In this document: piece by piece, positions 1 to 7,749 of the stretch
How the letters are laid out: every line of letters begins with the position of its first letter
How positions within the stretch are numbered: position 1 is the first letter of the stretch
Assembly (NCBI GenBank): GCA_021808205.1
Contig: JAKBCD010000040.1
Span: 1-8,310 of the forward strand
Length of the DNA stretch: 8,310 nucleotides
Source of the DNA: Pseudomonadota bacterium
GTDB lineage: Bacteria; Pseudomonadota; Alphaproteobacteria; Acetobacterales; Acetobacteraceae
Direction of reading: 5' to 3'
The notes under the pieces: model-generated
The model's input: the letters and a program-made list of their open reading frames with translations, nothing else
Told to the model about the DNA's origin: nothing
Databases searched by the model: none
Made by a program: the position numbers and the translations under genes

Positions 1-34
1 CCATCAGCACCGCGTAATAATCAAGTTTGGCCAT
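1..34 (-). CDS. dnaJ: DnaJ co-chaperone, N-terminal fragment (cut by window edge)
   Basis: Only the first 11 codons lie in the window; reading leftwards from the ATG at 34 they give MAKLDYYAVLM. This matches the start of the DnaJ J-domain (family pattern M-A-K-x-D-Y-Y-x-x-L-G-V), which binds DnaK and stimulates its ATPase. The position immediately downstream of dnaK on the same strand is the usual dnaK-dnaJ order and supports the call strongly. A GAGGA at 48-52 could be the ribosome site, but its 13-nt spacing is long. Residue 11 is Met where most DnaJ proteins have Gly. The zinc-finger and C-terminal domains lie outside the window, so integrity cannot be judged. Confidence 0.85.
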   Translation of the reverse strand, partial: MAKLDYYAVLM

Positions 35-73
35 GATGGCGCTTATATCCTCGAAATTCTGCTGAAATGGAAA

Positions 74-96
74 GTCCCGGAGCTTAGCTCCGGGAC
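74..96 (-). terminator. Hairpin in the dnaK-dnaJ gap, possible attenuating terminator
   Basis: A perfect 10-bp inverted repeat (gtcccggagc / gctccgggac) has a 3-nt loop and lies 25 nt past the dnaK stop codon. Reading in the direction of dnaK it is followed by only TTT and then mixed bases. It is therefore a weak intrinsic terminator at best, and could equally be an mRNA-stabilising or processing hairpin that sets the dnaK:dnaJ ratio. dnaJ starts 39 nt further on, so partial read-through would be required unless dnaJ has its own promoter. Confidence 0.5.
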
Positions 97-121
97 CTCG
101 CCCGTCATATCAAACCCGGGT

Positions 122-2032
122 TCACGCGGGTTTGTTCTTGTCGTCGACATCCTCGAAATCGGCGTCGACAACCTTCTCGCCGTTCGGACCAGCGCTCTCT
201 GCCCCTGGCTGCGCCGCGCCCGCCTGGGCTTCAGCCTTGTACATTGCCTCGCCGATCTTCATCGCCAACTGGGTCAGCTTCTCCGAGGCCGCCTTCACCG
301 CCTCGGCATTGCCGCCTTCCAGGGCCGATTTCGCTTCAGCAATCGCAGCTTCAGCCTCCGCCTTGTCGGCCGGGGTCACCTTGTCGCCCGCATCCTTCAG
401 TGTCTTCTCAACCTGGTTGACCATGCTCTCGGTCTGGTTACGTGCTTCAACCGCCTCGCGCCGGGCCTTATCGGCCGCCGCGTTCTCCTCCGCCTCGCGC
501 ACCATGCGCTCGATATCGGCGTCAGAGAGACCACCAGAAGCCTGGATGCGGATCTGAGTTTCCTTGCCCGTCGCCTTATCCTTGGCTTGCACCGCGACAA
601 TGCCGTTCGCATCGATATCGAAAGTCACTTCGATCTGCGGCACCCCGCGCGGCGCCGAGGGAATACCCTGCAAATCGAAATTGCCGAGCAGCTTGTTGTC
701 CGCCGCCATCTCGCGCTCACCCTGGAACACCTTGATGGTGACCGCCGTCTGGCCGTCTTCGGCCGTGGAGAAGGTCTGGCTCTTCTTGGTCGGGATCGTG
801 GTGTTCCGGTCGATCAGGCGCGTAAACACACCGCCCAGCGTCTCAATGCCCAGCGAAAGCGGGGTCACATCGAGCAACAGAACGTCCTTCACGTCGCCCT
901 TCAGCACGCCACCCTGAATCGCAGCACCGATGGCCACAACCTCATCCGGGTTCACATTGCGGGCGGGTTCCTTGCCGAAGAAACTCTTCACCGCCTCGAT
1001 CACCTTCGGCATGCGGGTCATGCCGCCCACCAGGATCACTTCCGAGATCTCCCCGGCGGTCACTCCGGCATCCTTCAGCGCCGCCCGGCAAGGGGCCAGC
1101 GTACGCTCGATCAGGTCGTCCACCAGGCTTTCCAGCTTCGCGCGGGAGAGCTTCAGCACCAGATGCTTTGGCCCGGAGGCGTCGGCGGTGATGAACGGCA
1201 GGTTGATCTCTGTCTCTTTGGAGGATGACAGCTCGATCTTCGCCTTCTCAGCCGCTTCCTTCAGGCGCTGCAGGGCCAGCTTGTCCTTACGCAGATCAAT
1301 GCCCTGGTCCTTCTTGAACTCGTCGGCCAGGTAATCGATCACCCGCGCATCGAAATCCTCACCACCCAGGAAGGTGTCGCCATTGGTGGATTTCACCTCG
1401 AACACGCCGTCGCCCAGCTCCAGCACGGAAACGTCGAACGTGCCGCCGCCAAGGTCATACACCGCGATGGTCCCGGCATTCTTCTTATCCATGCCATAAG
1501 CAAGGGCGGCCGCCGTCGGCTCGTTGATGATACGCAGCACGTCCAGCCCCGCGATCTTGCCGGCATCCTTCGTCGCCTGGCGTTGCGCGTCGTTAAAATA
1601 GGCCGGCACGGTAATCACCGCCTGGGTCACGGTCTCGCCCAGATACGCCTCGGCCGTCTCCTTCATCTTGGTCAGAATGTAGGAGGACACCTGCGAAGGC
1701 GAATATTTCTCGCCCCTGGCCTCAACCCAGGCATCGCCGTTATCGCCCTTCACAATGGCGTAAGGCACCAGCCCCTTATCCTTGGCCACGGTCGGGTCTT
1801 CATACCGGCGGCCAATCAGCCGTTTCACCGCGAACAGCGTGTTGGTCGGGTTGGTCACCGCCTGGCGCTTGGCGCTCTGGCCGACAAGGCGCTCACCGGA
1901 ATCTGCGAAGGCCACCATCGAAGGTGTGGTGCGGGCACCTTCCGCGTTCTCGATAACGCGAACATCCTTACCCTCCAGCACCGCCACGCAGCTATTGGTG
2001 GTGCCGAGGTCAATACCTATCACTTTACTCAT
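122..2032 (-). CDS. dnaK: Molecular chaperone DnaK (Hsp70)
   Basis: This encodes a 636-residue cytoplasmic Hsp70, normal full length. It binds exposed hydrophobic peptide segments in an ATP-driven cycle with DnaJ and GrpE. The ATPase domain starts with [13 protein letters not shown] (6-18), has the catalytic Lys at 70 (FAVKRLIGR), the phosphate loop DLGGGTFD (193-200) and VGGMTRMP (335-342). The conserved interdomain linker is DVLLLDVTP (383-391), followed by the substrate-binding domain and helical lid. The C-terminus ([16 protein letters not shown]) has the acidic tail typical of bacterial DnaK. The start is secure: AAGGAG (2040-2045) sits 7 nt before the ATG. dnaJ follows on the same strand. 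The TGA stop lies in the 8-nt loop of an 8-bp hairpin (111-134). I see no CIRCE element upstream; heat-shock control by an RpoH-type sigma factor is expected from the family but not clearly visible. Confidence 0.98.
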
Positions 2033-3069: not shown

Positions 3070-3087
3070 AGCGCCAGCCTAGGCGCT
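3070..3087 (-). terminator. Weak hairpin spanning the leuA stop codon
   Basis: AGCGCC (3070-3075) and GGCGCT (3082-3087) form a 6-bp stem whose 6-nt loop includes the leuA TAG. A competing stem with the coding-side GCGCC at 3090-3094 is also possible. No T-tract follows on the minus strand, so termination activity is uncertain. Confidence 0.25.
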
Positions 3088-4653
3088 AAGCGCCTCCGGC
3101 GCGTGGCGGGTGCGCTTGGTCACCAACTTGTTCAGCGCATGGATATAAGCGCGCACGGCGGCCACGATGGTATCCGTATCCGCCCCCTGCCCGTCCACGC
3201 TCTTGCCATCCTCGGCCAAGCGCACGGTGCAGCGCGCCTGGGCGTCCGTGCCCTCGGTTACCGCCCCAACAGAGAATAATTGCAACTCGGCCTCATGCGG
3301 AAAGATGGCGCGCACGGCATTGAACGCCGCATCCACCGGCCCGTCGCCGCGCTCGTCGGCGGCTTTCACCACACCATCCACGTCCAGCTCCAGCACCGCG
3401 CGGGGCTTGTCCTTGGAGCCGGCCCACACTTCCAACGAGACAAATTTAATCGCCTCATGGCTGCGCACCACCTCGTCATCCACCAGCGCAACGATATCCT
3501 CGTCGTAAACAATTTTCTTACGGTCAGCCAAAATCTTGAACCGGGTGAACGCGTCGTTCAGCGCATTGTCACCGATATCGCCATAACCCAGCGCATTCAG
3601 CTTGTCGCGAAAGGCCGCCCGGCCGGAATGCTTGCCCATCACCAGCGAGGTTTTCTGCCAGCCCACACTCTCCGGCGTCATAATCTCATAGGTGGCCGCG
3701 TTCTTCAGCATGCCGTCCTGGTGAATGCCGGATTCGTGTGCGAAGGCATTGCGCCCCACAATCGCCTTGTTCGGCTGCACATCGAAGCCGGTGATGGTGG
3801 AAAGCAGTTTGGAGGTGCGCAGAATGCGCGTGGTCTCGATATTGTTGTGGTACGGGTTGGAATCCGGCCGGGTGCGGATCGCCATGGCCACCTCTTCAAG
3901 CGAGGCATTGCCCGCCCGCTCGCCAATGCCGTTGATCGTGCATTCAATCTGCCGCGCCCCGCCGCGCACCGCGGCCAGCGTGTTCGCCACCGCCAAGCCT
4001 AAATCATTATGGCAATGGGTGGAGAGAATAATCTGGTCCGCCCCCGGCACGCGCTGCCGCACTGTGGAGAAAATCCGCACCATGTCCTCCGGCACCGCAT
4101 AGCCTACCGTGTCCGGAATATTCACCGTGGTGGCCCCGGCCTTAATCGCGGCTTCCACACAGCGGCACAGAAAATCGATATCCGTGCGGGTGCCATCCTC
4201 GGCGGACCATTCAACGTCATCGGTGTATTGCCGCGCCAGGGTCACGGATTTGGTCACCGCCTCCAGCACCACCTCCGGCTCCATCTTCAGCTTGTACTTC
4301 ATATGTAACGGGGAGGTAGAAATGAAAGTATGGATGCGCTTGCGTTCGGCCGCCTTCACCGCCTCGCCCGCCCGGATAATATCCGCCGGAGATGACCGTG
4401 CCAGGCCCGTAATCACCGGCCCCTTCACGCTTTCCGCAATGCGCTGCACGCTCTCAAAATCGCCCGGCGAGGCAATGGGAAAGCCTGCCTCCAGCACATC
4501 CACGCCCAGAGCCGCCAGCGCCTCCGCCATGCGGATTTTTTCGTCGAGATTCATCGAGAACCCAGGGGATTGCTCGCCATCGCGCAAGGTCGTGTCAAAG
4601 ATGATAACGCGGTTTGCGTCCATCTTGCCAAAATTAGGGTGGTTAATCGTCAT
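3079..4653 (-). CDS. leuA: 2-isopropylmalate synthase
   Basis: This is the first committed enzyme of leucine synthesis: it condenses 2-oxoisovalerate with acetyl-CoA to 2-isopropylmalate in the cytoplasm. At 524 residues it has the usual length of LeuA form I. Visible motifs are the catalytic-barrel start DTTLRDGEQSPG (20-31, metal-ligand Asp20), the metal-binding HCHND (213-217), NGIGERAGN (241-249), HESGIHQDG (306-314), and a complete C-terminal regulatory domain (about 400-515), so leucine feedback inhibition is expected. HESGIHQDG and the regulatory domain argue against homocitrate or citramalate synthase, although citramalate synthase cannot be excluded by eye. The ATG at 4653 is chosen because GGAG (4661-4664) sits 7 nt upstream; Met11 has no ribosome site. 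No other leu or ilv gene is adjacent. An apparent leucine-rich leader peptide and alternative RNA structures precede it (4695-4847). Confidence 0.97.
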   Translation of the reverse strand: MTINHPNFGKMDANRVIIFDTTLRDGEQSPGFSMNLDEKIRMAEALAALGVDVLEAGFPIASPGDFESVQRIAESVKGPVITGLARSSPADIIRAGEAVKAAERKRIHTFISTSPLHMKYKLKMEPEVVLEAVTKSVTLARQYTDDVEWSAEDGTRTDIDFLCRCVEAAIKAGATTVNIPDTVGYAVPEDMVRIFSTVRQRVPGADQIILSTHCHNDLGLAVANTLAAVRGGARQIECTINGIGERAGNASLEEVAMAIRTRPDSNPYHNNIETTRILRTSKLLSTITGFDVQPNKAIVGRNAFAHESGIHQDGMLKNAATYEIMTPESVGWQKTSLVMGKHSGRAAFRDKLNALGYGDIGDNALNDAFTRFKILADRKKIVYDEDIVALVDDEVVRSHEAIKFVSLEVWAGSKDKPRAVLELDVDGVVKAADERGDGPVDAAFNAVRAIFPHEAELQLFSVGAVTEGTDAQARCTVRLAEDGKSVDGQGADTDTIVAAVRAYIHALNKLVTKRTRHAPEALSA

Positions 4654-4694
4654 AACTCTGCTCCGAAATTCTGCCGGTGGTTATTTCTGGCATT

Positions 4695-4753
4695 CCCCTG
4701 AGCGGCGGGCGCGGTATTCAAAACACGCGCAAGAAAAACTTATCGCTCAGGGG
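4695..4753 (-). promoter_or_regulatory. Long-range 10-bp RNA helix in the leuA leader
   Basis: In the leuA transcript, CCCCTGAGCG (4753 down to 4744) is perfectly complementary to CGCTCAGGGG (4704 down to 4695). The 5' arm contains the stop codon of the leader peptide. The 39-nt enclosed segment can form a further 5-bp GCGCG/CGCGC hairpin (4709-4713 with 4726-4730). The helix uses the same bases as the T5-associated hairpin at 4738-4762, so the two are mutually exclusive. A perfect 10-bp match over this distance is unlikely by chance. Which leuA state it favours is inference. Confidence 0.6.
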
Positions 4754-4762
4754 CGGATAAGT
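4734..4762 (-). terminator. Candidate attenuator hairpin with T5 tract before leuA
   Basis: Reading toward leuA, ACTTAT pairs with ATAAGT and CGC with GCG (one bulged C) around the loop CCCTGA. The hairpin runs directly into TTTTT (4734-4738). The 5' arm is made of leader-peptide codons 13-15 (Arg, Leu, Ile), and the loop holds the leader stop codon. The stem is modest and AT-rich at its base. A ribosome stalled on the Leu codons just upstream would cover the 5' arm and block the hairpin. Confidence 0.5.
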
Positions 4763-4800
4763 CGAAGGAGCAGCCCAGCAAGGGTAGGGGCAGAAGCCAT
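4747..4800 (-). CDS. leuL: Leucine-rich leader peptide of leuA
   Basis: This short ORF lies 93 nt upstream of leuA on the same strand and encodes 17 residues, MASAPTLAGLLLRLIRP, then TGA. Five residues are Leu (7, 10, 11, 12, 14), three of them consecutive (CTG CTC CTT), with an Ile right after Leu14. TAAGG (4808-4812) lies 7 nt before the ATG as a ribosome site. The AGLLLR core resembles the GLLLL run of the E. coli leu operon leader. The inferred role is as a leucine sensor: scarcity of charged tRNA-Leu stalls the ribosome and changes folding of the downstream RNA (hairpin 4734-4762, helix 4695-4753), raising leuA expression. The peptide itself probably has no function. The ORF, codons and complementarities are directly visible; regulation is inferred from position and from known amino-acid attenuators. 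Confidence 0.72.
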   Translation of the reverse strand: MASAPTLAGLLLRLIRP

Positions 4801-4812
4801 GACCTTGCCTTA

Positions 4813-4847
4813 GCGCAAAAGCTTCCGCCGTTGCAAGCCGTTTGCGC
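4813..4847 (-). promoter_or_regulatory. Stem-loop just upstream of the leader peptide ribosome site
   Basis: A 7-bp inverted repeat (gcgcaaa at 4813-4819, tttgcgc at 4841-4847) encloses a second 4-bp pairing (gctt at 4821-4824, aagc at 4835-4838). In the leuA direction it ends immediately before the TAAGG of the leader peptide. It has no T-tract on either strand. It may be a 5'-UTR structure that keeps the leader ribosome site exposed, if transcription starts upstream of it. Confidence 0.35.
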
Positions 4848-5031: not shown

Positions 5032-7749
5032 ATGTCGAGTCTCCCCGCCCTGCCCGCTCTCGCCGCCGGCCATGGCCGCGCCGTCCTGCTAGATGCGGAT
5101 GGCGTGATCCTTACCCTTAAACCCGGCACAATCGCCCGCCAGGTGGGCGCTTCTATCCCGCTTTGCATCCACGCCCCGGCTACGCTCAAACGCCTTGGCA
5201 ACCCGGCCATCCAGTTGCTGGACCTGCTGGAACTCTTCGCCTTCGTGCATCCGGCGCAAAGCCTGGCCCCCACCCCGGCAGGCTTCGCCCGGGCGCTGGA
5301 ACTACCCATCCCCAATTCGCTTGAATCCGCCGCTCAAGCCTTGCCGGAAATGGCGGAATTGCTCCTCACGCGCCTGGAGGCGGGCAAAACCACCCCCGCG
5401 AACCGAGACGCCCCAGGCCTTGCCGCCCGCATGGGTGCCGCTGGCTGGCTCTGGGCGCCTTACGTGCTCGCCGCCCTCGGCCAGCCGGATGCAAGGCCGG
5501 ATGGCATGGCCATGCGCCTGTGGAAGCGCCTGCCAAAATGGGAGGAAACCGCGCCGCGCCCGCCGCCATCCAGCTTCGCCATCACTCCGGCGGAAGCCCG
5601 CTCCCGCCTTGCCAGCCTGCTCGGCCCAAACGCTGAACAGCGCCCCACCCAGGCGGATTTCTGCTCCGCCGTTACCGCCGCCTTCGCCCCGCGCGAGGCC
5701 GAGGGCAGCCCTCAAATGGTGCTGGCGGAAGCGGGCACCGGGACCGGCAAAACCATGGGCTACCTCGCCCCCGCCTCGCTCTGGGCGGAGCGCAATAAAG
5801 GTGCTGTATGGATTTCCACCTATACCCGCCACCTCCAGCGCCAGATCGAGCAGGAAGCAAGCCGCCTGCCCGCCGGCACCAATGTGGTGCTGCGCAAGGG
5901 CCGCGAGAATTATCTCTGCCTGCTCAATTTCGAAGACGCTATGAACGCGCAAACCCGCGCGATTCCACTTGGGCTCATCGCCCGCTGGGCCACTGCCAGC
6001 GCCGATGGTGATTTGTTCGGCGGCGATCTTCCCGGCTGGTTCGCCGAACTTTACGGCCAGCCGCTTCTGGCCAGCATCGCGGACCGGCGCGGCGAGTGCA
6101 TCCATGCCGCCTGTCCGCATTTCTCCACCTGCGTGATCGAGCGCGTGATCCGCGATGCCCGCCAGGCGGATCTGGTGATCGCCAACCACGCGCTGGTGAT
6201 GGCGCAAGCGGTTTGGGGCGGGCTCGACGATGACAACGTGCCCACCCGCTATGTGTTCGACGAAGGCCACCATATTTTCGACGCCGCTGATTCGGCGTTT
6301 TCCGTCGAGCTTTCCGGCGGCGCCATGGCTGAGCTGCGGCGCTGGCTTTTGGGCGCGGAGGGTACACGCTCGCGCGCGCGTGGCCTCGCCAAACGGCTGG
6401 AGGACATGGCGGCCGTGGATGAGCCCACGCACAAAGCCATCGAACAGACAGCCAAATTTGCAAAAACCCTGCCCGCGCCAATGTTCTCCGTGCGGCTGGA
6501 CCCGGAACTGGCAGCAGACAACAACCCGGCGGAAGAATGGCTGCGGCTGATACGCGCCCAGGCCCGCGCCCGCGCCAACGCGCCCGACCTCGCTGGCACC
6601 AGCGGGTTTGAGACCGATTTGCACCCGTTAAACGAGGACATCTTCCCCGCCGCCCGCAAGCTCGCTCTGGCCATGGAACAGCTCCGCGTTCCCTTAAGCG
6701 CCCTGCGCGAGCGGATGCTGGAACGGCTGGAAAACGAACCCGACTTGGAAGAAGCCACGCGCCAGCGGCTGGAGAGCACCGCCCGCAGCCTGAAGCGCCG
6801 CGCCATCGATCCGCTTTCTGGCTGGAAGCGCATTCTGGACGGGCTTGAATCCGAACCCGCCCCCGGCGAGCGCCCTGGCCGCGTGGAATTTTTGCGGCTG
6901 GACCGTGAGGCCGGAACCGATAAAGATATCGCCCTGCTCTCGCATCTTCTGGACCCCACGGAAGCTTTCACCCAATCCATCGCCACCCCGGCGCATGGGC
7001 TGCTTATCACCTCCGCCACGCTGCGGGACGGCATTGACCTTGAGGAAGCCTGGGAGACCGCCGAGGCCCGCACCGGTGCCGCACATCTGACAACCCCTGC
7101 CATCCGTGCCGCGTTCGACAGCCCTTTTGATTATGGCGAGCGCACCCGCGTGGTGCTGGTATCAGATGTGAACACCCAGGATATCGGCCAGCTCGCCGGA
7201 GCCTACAAAGCCTTGTTCGAGGCTGCGGGCGGCGGCGGGCTGGGGCTATTCACCGCCATCTCGCGCCTGCGCGCCGTGCATGCCAAAATCGCCGCACCTT
7301 TAGAGGAAAAGGGCATTTCCCTCTACGCCCAGCATGTCGACGCGATGGATAACGCCACGTTAGTGGATATCTTCCGCGCCGAGGAACATTCCTGCCTGCT
7401 GGGGACTGATGCGATGCGCGACGGCGTGGACATTCCCGGCAACGCCCTGCGCCTGGTGGTGTTCGAGCGCACGCCCTGGCCACGCCCGGATATTCTGCAC
7501 CGCACACGGCGCACGCATCTCTCTCATGGCGCACCCAAAACCTATGACGATGCCATCGTGCGCCTGCGCCTGCGCCAGGCCTTTGGCCGCCTCATCCGCC
7601 GTACCGACGACAGAGGCGTGTTCGTGCTGCTGGACCGGCAATTTCCCTCCCGCCTGCTCACGGCCTTTCCGGAGCAGGCGCGGATTATCCGCTCGTCGCT
7701 GGCAGATGCAATTACCGGGATCGGACGGTTTTTGAAGGAACCAGTGTAA
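5032..7749 (+). CDS. DinG/XPD-type iron-sulfur DNA helicase
   Basis: This encodes a 905-residue superfamily 2 helicase of the DinG/XPD group, expected to unwind DNA 5' to 3' and to act on repair intermediates, R-loops or unusual structures. Visible motifs are RPTQ (204-207), Walker A GTGTGKT (235-241), the DEAH-box variant DEGH (410-413), SATL (661-664), GTDAMRDGVD (791-800), and motif VI QAFGRLIRR (849-857). Four cysteines at 296, 356, 361 and 367 have the C-x4-C-x5-C spacing of the last three cluster ligands of E. coli DinG, so a 4Fe-4S cluster is likely. About 200 residues precede the helicase core. Their second half (LLDLLELFAFVHPA to ALPEMAELLL, about 62-111) loosely recalls the C-terminal part of a DnaQ-type exonuclease, without recognisable catalytic acids. 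The ATG at 5032 follows an in-frame stop at 5020-5022; there is no ribosome site. It is longer than E. coli DinG, so I give no gene symbol. Confidence 0.93.
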   Translation: MSSLPALPALAAGHGRAVLLDADGVILTLKPGTIARQVGASIPLCIHAPATLKRLGNPAIQLLDLLELFAFVHPAQSLAPTPAGFARALELPIPNSLESAAQALPEMAELLLTRLEAGKTTPANRDAPGLAARMGAAGWLWAPYVLAALGQPDARPDGMAMRLWKRLPKWEETAPRPPPSSFAITPAEARSRLASLLGPNAEQRPTQADFCSAVTAAFAPREAEGSPQMVLAEAGTGTGKTMGYLAPASLWAERNKGAVWISTYTRHLQRQIEQEASRLPAGTNVVLRKGRENYLCLLNFEDAMNAQTRAIPLGLIARWATASADGDLFGGDLPGWFAELYGQPLLASIADRRGECIHAACPHFSTCVIERVIRDARQADLVIANHALVMAQAVWGGLDDDNVPTRYVFDEGHHIFDAADSAFSVELSGGAMAELRRWLLGAEGTRSRARGLAKRLEDMAAVDEPTHKAIEQTAKFAKTLPAPMFSVRLDPELAADNNPAEEWLRLIRAQARARANAPDLAGTSGFETDLHPLNEDIFPAARKLALAMEQLRVPLSALRERMLERLENEPDLEEATRQRLESTARSLKRRAIDPLSGWKRILDGLESEPAPGERPGRVEFLRLDREAGTDKDIALLSHLLDPTEAFTQSIATPAHGLLITSATLRDGIDLEEAWETAEARTGAAHLTTPAIRAAFDSPFDYGERTRVVLVSDVNTQDIGQLAGAYKALFEAAGGGGLGLFTAISRLRAVHAKIAAPLEEKGISLYAQHVDAMDNATLVDIFRAEEHSCLLGTDAMRDGVDIPGNALRLVVFERTPWPRPDILHRTRRTHLSHGAPKTYDDAIVRLRLRQAFGRLIRRTDDRGVFVLLDRQFPSRLLTAFPEQARIIRSSLADAITGIGRFLKEPV

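Follow-up and report, generated by a model that had tools for sequence, protein, structure and literature searches.

A conserved leucine-codon leader upstream of leuA in Acetobacteraceae and related Alphaproteobacteria

The leuA gene of an Acetobacteraceae bacterium is preceded by a short leader, which was analyzed within an 8,310-nt stretch of DNA (the window). Of 145 Acetobacteraceae sequences, 143 carry the same leader upstream of leuA and, judged by this comparison, it is more than a chance reading frame; conservation strongly supports the view that it is a leucine-codon leader associated with leuA. The best explanation, to which we assign a rough probability of 0.42, is a leucine-responsive leuA leader whose output would mostly be reduced translation initiation. 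The comparison shows the open frame, the control codons with their spacing, a covarying hairpin (P1), the position of the promoter, the association with the gene and, in a subset, base pairing of the control codons with the spacer or the leuA ribosome site; what we infer under this explanation is that the leader is translated, that ribosomes stall on it, that it responds to leucine, in which direction it acts, and which output operates in the species of the window.

The Leader ORF and Its Surroundings in the Window

The leader ORF occupies positions 4747..4800 on the minus strand, between leuA and a divergent ORF with its start at 5032, and its translation from the window sequence (4800 to 4747) is MASAPTLAGLLLRLIRP, followed by a stop codon. 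The stop ends at 4747 and the leuA ATG starts from 4653, leaving 93 nt between the two. The downstream gene (3079..4653, minus strand) encodes 2-isopropylmalate synthase, scoring 684 bits against TIGR00973 with a cut-off of 599. A leader ORF 93 nt upstream of leuA had been proposed by a sequence-only reading of this DNA; it exists as described and recurs before leuA in relatives.

The Leu run of the window leader is CTG CTC CTT CGA CTT ATC (L-L-L-R-L-I). The putative control codons CTT CGA CTT (4759..4767, minus strand), assigned from conservation in the family, include together with the next A the CGACTTA core. In the predicted fold, the Leu codons CTGCTCC (4767..4773, minus strand) are able to pair with GGAGCAG (4658..4664, minus strand) in the leuA Shine-Dalgarno (SD) region, a pairing with p = 0.70 against shuffles in the window.

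The leader's 3′ end is overlapped by a strong hairpin, P1 (CCCCTGAGCG:CGCTCAGGGG), which bears out the earlier suggestion of a hairpin at this place. Its 5′ arm, CCCCTGAGCG (4744..4753, minus strand), contains the leader stop codon TGA, and its 3′ arm, CGCTCAGGGG (4695..4704, minus strand), was placed by covariation and the predicted fold. The region folds at −70 kcal/mol, compared with −59 kcal/mol for shuffles (z = −2.6), and 3 of 200 shuffles folded as well.

Elsewhere in the window, a dnaK-like gene (122–2032, minus strand; named by sight) is accompanied by a 408-codon open frame in antisense (2–1228, plus strand), probably a by-product of high-GC codon usage.

Conservation of the Anchor, the Frame and the Control Codons

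A first leuA search provided 80 loci, many of them named Acidocella, Acidiphilium, Roseomonas-type or other Acetobacteraceae, together with Beijerinckiaceae/Rhizobiales and Micavibrio. A match to leuA was present in 361 of the 397 genomes of the family, and 100 places, all among the better matches listed, were used; 30 genomes of one further sample were hand-chosen. After L001, L056 and L059 (little or no upstream DNA), L159 (64 bases) and 15 duplicates had been dropped, 162 upstream sequences were kept, the window included. Seventeen of them (L064–L080), from Rhizobiales/Micavibrio, were set apart, leaving 145 from Acetobacteraceae.

CGACTT followed by the P1 5′ arm was found in 143 of the 145 sequences, and the spacing from CGACTT to CCCC was 11 nt in 136 of the 143 anchored ones. 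The two sequences without CGACTT, L055 and L148, both contain CTTA; no anchor was seen in L211. In all 143 anchored Acetobacteraceae sequences the frame was open through CGA-CTT and had a nearby in-frame stop, which was the sixth codon from CGA, inside the P1 5′ arm, in 64 (the window among them) and the eighth, just past the arm, in 79. The stop codons TGA, TAA and TAG interchange among relatives, and the TGG-GCG-TGA, TAG and TAA variants all preserve the leader frame. The class set takes in the 17 Rhizobiales/Micavibrio sequences, and 68 of its 69 leaders have an open frame with a near in-frame stop.

These counts bear on a rival explanation, according to which CGACUUA and P1 form an RNA motif that a protein or a small RNA binds, the leader being open by accident only. 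The invariance of CGACTTA at the nucleotide level over much of the class would fit such a motif, as would L267 and L282, from two genomes of one family, which keep CTTCGACTTA and a P1-like hairpin although the frame does not close at P1, running through the hairpin and stopping later. Against an incidental frame stand the open frames and nearby stops of both sets, the stop variants that keep the frame, and the 29 of 69 class-set leaders in which a Leu codon (CTT, CTC or CTG) takes the place of CGA, and we regard this explanation as very improbable.

In at least 133 of 143 sequences, A was the first nucleotide of the codon after CTT, while the encoded residue varied (Ile, Ser, Thr, Met, Lys, Asn), and the constraint therefore appears to act on nucleotides. 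CTT at position +1 within CGACTTA is nearly invariant in relatives, with CTA there in L182, L294 and L295; the class anchors were found by a pattern that demanded CTT at a fixed place, so the 69/69 CTT at +1 and the fixed spacing of that set are partly built in. Counting Leu among codons −3 to +1, a single one was present in 5/172 family leaders and 2/69 class-set leaders, and two in 18/172 and 16/69, respectively. Among relatives, the conserved feature is the nucleotides CUU-CGA-CUU-A and not a Leu run. The sequence-only reading had proposed to test in related genomes whether a short Leu-rich ORF and its spacing are conserved: the short ORF and the distance from CGACTT to P1 are, whereas the Leu-rich run as such is not.

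The same codon-level pattern weighs on the idea of an arrest peptide, whose R-L-x-R-P end would stall the ribosome on free leucine or another small molecule instead of uncharged tRNA-Leu. A highly conserved Leu-Arg-Leu-X-X-Pro end in the family speaks for it. Against it, the residue after CTT varies under a retained A, many Rhizobiales-type leaders read LLLLSRP or LLLIRP and have no Arg-Leu, and the CCC encoding Pro belongs to P1; with a constraint that looks codon- or nucleotide-level and not peptide-level, peptide arrest seems a very unlikely basis for the leader.

CTT made up 356 of 597 Leu codons (60%) among the last codons of family leaders. The leuA genes themselves, 60 of them from this group, use CTT for 2.1% of Leu codons and CGA for 1.3% of Arg codons. 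Three long genes of the window used CTT for 25 of 196 Leu codons and CGA for 1 of 145 Arg codons, and CTT is therefore not rare in the window's own genome. Codon choice, together with established knowledge of leader peptides, makes it very probable that the leader senses tRNA-Leu charging. The fixed place of its Leu codons beside a covarying hairpin, and its association with two families of isopropylmalate synthase, also support this reading. According to a theory paper, changing the CUA control codons to CUG in the Salmonella leu attenuator reduced its sensitivity (PMC1183508). If ribosomes pause on the window's leader, the pause is expected at 4767–4759 (CTT CGA CTT), rather than at 4773–4767 alone as the earlier reading had it.

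In L156, four CGACTTA-like units lie before P1, and repeats also occur in L144, L145 and L151, a pattern that looks like duplication of the control codons.

Covariation of the P1 Hairpin

P1 was formed in 95.6% of the cells of a 52-sequence family alignment, where 5 of 10 pairs showed two-sided changes, and in 94.5% in a 55-sequence class alignment, where 7 of 10 pairs did. The family alignment held only rows with arms scoring at least 8/10 and a spacing of 11, five rows of the class alignment were hand-placed, and the arms were located by complementarity in both sets; the pair percentages consequently lean towards P1, because rows were chosen or placed partly by complementarity. The P1 covariation score was matched by 0 of 500 shuffles in the family alignment and 0 of 500 in the class alignment, with shuffles that ignore kinship among the sequences. 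Sliding the partners by 1 to 3 columns gave much worse results in both alignments.

Distribution Across the Class and Association with leuA

A covariance model for the element (R1) was searched against 241 genomes of Alphaproteobacteria and matched in 66 of them, at one place each. An isopropylmalate synthase operon lay downstream of 63 of the 66 matches: 57 precede a leuA of the TIGR00973 type, and five (L238, L248, L249, L265, L281) precede the other isopropylmalate synthase family, an assignment that was profile-tested (TIGR00970/NF002991) for two of the five and made by sight for the remaining three. Since the same element stands before a TIGR00970-type synthase, it appears to follow function and not one gene lineage. 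In one of the 66, a cupin-like gene comes next, followed by leuA. Matches in L268, L271 and L279 lie inside other genes and were put down to chance.

This arrangement of element, small cupin-like gene and leuA, noticed in one genome (L304, and L276), looks like the insertion of a gene that now separates leuA from its leader.

A second, class-trained model (R2) was searched against 299 Pseudomonadota and matched in 76, of which 75 belong to Alphaproteobacteria; the lone match outside the class is inside another gene and was rejected. Among 20 hand-chosen R2 matches that were read, 17 precede leuA and three (L296, L302, L303) are chance matches, one of them the sole match of a class genome. Within the order, the element was matched in 52 of 60 genomes. 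The window's genome has one clear model match; two further matches at E 0.3–0.4 and four at E 2–6 were taken as chance.

A Predicted Promoter and a Probably Leaderless Start

The sequence-only reading had given the leader a plausible ribosome site, a weak detail, as the site is not conserved: an SD-like motif precedes 10 of 108 single-ATG Acetobacteraceae leaders, compared with 14 of 216 background windows. For leuA, 118 of 172 starts have such a motif. In the 120 nt upstream of the same 108 leaders, CTTG occurs 127 times, with 80 occurrences at −40..−31 and 58 of the 127 at exactly −36 or −37 from the leader ATG. On the position of this motif in relatives, we predict a −35 box, CTTGCA, at 4832..4837 (minus strand) in the window, and from the sequence and the −35 position a −10 region, GCTAAG, at 4809..4814 (minus strand) with a 17-nt spacer. 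With a −35 box at that distance, transcription would begin on the leader AUG or right beside it. Given the −35 position and the missing SD enrichment, the leader mRNA is probably leaderless, and a ribosome site seems unnecessary for the leader. The 19 single-ATG leaders of the class set, whose starts are uncertain, showed no −35 peak and had SD-like motifs in 4/19 versus 3/38 in the background.

Possible Output by Transcription Termination

A classical attenuator needs a terminator. The chief rival of translational control is transcription attenuation, in which a hairpin would stop RNA polymerase unless a ribosome waits on the leader. The hairpin could be P1, which would either rely on its poor U-tract or make the polymerase pause; it could also be the alternative hairpin 1:2 with a T run in the window's genus, or a weak 3:4 hairpin further downstream that competes with P1. 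Rho may take part.

For P1 itself, the number of T in the following 8 nt is raised on average (1.66, versus 1.27 in the rest of the spacer), although at least five T there were found in only 11 of 171 relatives, and the window has no U-tract after P1. The case for termination is best seen in Commensalibacter, where P1 is followed immediately by eight T in L055, and where two further members of the genus, L192 and L196, are among the 11. By its sequence, the T run after P1 in these leaders resembles a true intrinsic terminator. The same three Commensalibacter-type leaders also have CAACTT for CGACTT and few Leu codons.

A simple terminator scan of the window found no terminator-like site between the leader and leuA; its two sites, one per strand, lie inside leuA. 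The scan missed a weak candidate that overlaps the leader's end. Here CTTATC (4756..4761, minus strand) can pair, 4761–4756 with 4744–4739, with GATAAG (4739..4744, minus strand) to form the weak 1:2 hairpin, which excludes P1 as alternative hairpins do in classical attenuators, and directly after it follows TTTTTCTT (4731..4738, minus strand), so that the two together may be a weak intrinsic terminator. By eye, the 1:2 hairpin is kept across 19 sequences of the genus and near relatives, with G-U changes and shifted register, a T-to-C/A-to-G change in L004, and a weak form in L086. The run of five T after it favors termination in the window, but it occurs in only 2 of the 19 sequences, the window and L002 (TTTTTCT).

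The 3:4 helix reached p < 0.05 in 16 of 110 representatives, about three times expectation, which lends attenuation some support; it is not general, and a universal 3:4 terminator was rejected on this count. Altogether, we consider termination a serious candidate that falls somewhat short of even odds. Of the leucine attenuator proposed earlier, the conserved leader frame and the Leu codons fixed beside a covarying hairpin are supported; a classical terminator is suggested in few relatives by U-tracts after P1 and in the window by the weak 1:2 candidate.

Possible Output by Base Pairing with the Spacer or the leuA Ribosome Site

Pairing of the control codons with the spacer fell in the top 5% of dinucleotide shuffles in 24 of 118 representatives, against 11/118 and 2/37 in controls, and in the class set alone in 11 of 40, against 3/40 and 2/26. 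When GC-matched partners from other genomes were used, the counts were 21/114 versus 14/114 for an upstream control and 3/35 for a leuA-coding control. The pairing was not seen in the Rhizobiales/Micavibrio set (2/15).

Whether the Leu run pairs with the leuA SD was tested against shuffles in 31 sequences, all hand-chosen (16 AT-rich relatives and 15 of the window's own group). This pairing was significant (p < 0.05) in 10 of the 16 chosen AT-rich relatives, some of them close kin (L184, L188, L194, L197, L199, L201, L202, L205, L206 and L209), with p of 0.05–0.13 in L198, L207 and L210 and no significance in L192, L193 and L196; these 16 include two Commensalibacter-type sequences, L188 matches the Asaia locus L053, and for the others the label "acetic acid bacteria" is our own attribution. 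Several of the ten form the helix from unrelated sequences. In the window's own group the pairing reached p < 0.05 in 0 of 15, the window included with its high p value.

Family-wide, the Leu-run:SD pairing of 63 representatives (AT-rich ones included) had a mean z of −0.78 against shuffles, with −0.40 for the upstream control, whereas GC matching brought it to −0.44, with −0.45 for the upstream control region. The idea that all members share a Leu-run:SD base stem, which a plain cis/trans test had seemed to support strongly, was thus rejected, the signal having shrunk with GC matching to that of the control region. Because the family-wide signal fails GC matching, the stem is retained for the AT-rich relatives only.

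In masked folds, a ribosome footprint was placed on the control codons of 142 sequences. The mean unpaired probability of the SD was 0.35 in the free RNA, 0.43 with the ribosome on CUU, 0.33 with a control mask and 0.38 with the ribosome at the stop; SD openness with the ribosome on CUU rose by more than 0.1 in 55 of 142 and fell by more than 0.1 in 9, a small effect. In the window, the SD was unpaired at 0.34 when free; the value fell to 0.22 when the CUU after CGA occupied the A site and rose to 0.41 when the A site was two codons earlier. Across the masked folds, the mean P1 probability dropped from 0.86 in the free RNA to 0.17 for the first of these two ribosome positions and was 0.86 for the second. 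L052, below the P1 score cut, was left out of the masked-fold, SD-pairing and U-tract counts.

Proposed Mechanism

In the leucine-responsive leader that we favor, the mRNA would begin with the leader AUG or very close to it, and ribosomes would load directly on that AUG. When charged tRNA-Leu is scarce, a ribosome would wait at CUU-CGA-CUU. The leading edge of a ribosome covers about 12 nt in the standard footprint, and from the last CUU it would reach into the P1 5′ arm, while the ribosome would also occupy codons otherwise able to pair with the spacer or the leuA SD. A long-range closed structure could then not form, and leuA would be expressed. When leucine is plentiful, the ribosome would terminate at the stop in or beside the P1 5′ arm and leave; P1 and the base pairing would close, and leuA expression would fall. 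The output would most likely be reduced translation initiation in most lineages and intrinsic termination in a few, such as Commensalibacter.

For the element overall, we place translational control slightly ahead of termination, because a terminator is usually missing and a subset of sequences demonstrably lets the control codons pair with the spacer or SD; in the window, we consider both outputs about equally likely.

Taken more broadly, and with a confidence that stays well under one half, the element could be an ancient alphaproteobacterial RNA for which we found neither a match in Rfam 15 nor a description in papers. It would combine one near-invariant stall sensor, a leaderless CUU-CGA-CUU-A with the stop in or beside the P1 arm, with two LeuA families and lineage-specific outputs: in AT-rich acetic acid bacteria the control codons would capture the SD, Commensalibacter would use a U-tract terminator, and the genus of the window a 1:2 switch. 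If this is true, control of leuA in many Alphaproteobacteria rests on a widespread RNA element unlike the enteric attenuator. The short exact motif could be used to annotate unlabelled leader peptides, and the natural series, in which the same stall sensor is seemingly joined to different outputs, would make change in attenuator mechanism testable.

Comparison with Known Leader-Peptide Systems

No Rfam family matched the window at the gathering score; weak matches at E up to 5, to suhB (E 1.5) and TtnuCD34 (E 3.8), were judged to be chance, and in 40 relative loci the gathering score was reached by tRNAs only. The Leu_leader covariance model of Rfam, which we take to be the enterobacterial leu operon leader (LeuL), did not match the window at the gathering score or at E up to 5. 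A literature search over titles and the starts of abstracts returned no paper on an alphaproteobacterial leuA leader; two older comparative surveys, Vitreschak 2004 and Lopatovskaya 2010, may mention such leuA attenuators.

Two alphaproteobacterial systems share parts of the design. In the Sinorhizobium trp attenuator rnTrpL/peTrpL, the mRNA is leaderless and starts at the leader AUG (PMC10117765), as is predicted for the amino-acid leader described here; unlike it, that system is a known attenuator RNA of the tryptophan operon (PMC10117765). The cysS leader uORFC-8-2 of Rhodobacterales is likewise an ORF thought to sense charged tRNA by stalling (PMC8632094), but it has cysteine codons, belongs to a different gene and is confined in that account to one order (PMC8632094).

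With the enterobacterial leu leader, the present element has in common a short ORF before leuA, genome-rare Leu control codons and hairpins at the 3′ end. It differs in having one to few CUU around CGA in place of a CUA run, a stop codon in a hairpin arm, and no U-tract after P1 in the window. The actinobacterial LEU element has a leader peptide with Leu codons before leuA, a base stem between the Leu run and the leuA SD, and a conserved pseudoknot (PMC1262725). The Leu-codon leader peptide before leuA is shared with the element described here, and the Leu run:SD pairing has a counterpart in 10 of the 16 chosen AT-rich relatives, being lineage-specific here and not significant in the window; the CUU-CGA-CUU-A core and P1 set the present element apart from that description. 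By description, these two, the actinobacterial LEU element and the enteric leu leader, are the nearest known systems. Sequence comparison and modeling point to both a short ORF with codons for the pathway's product and a conserved structure that a ribosome could change, which would place the leader among amino-acid leader-peptide regulators in the broad sense.
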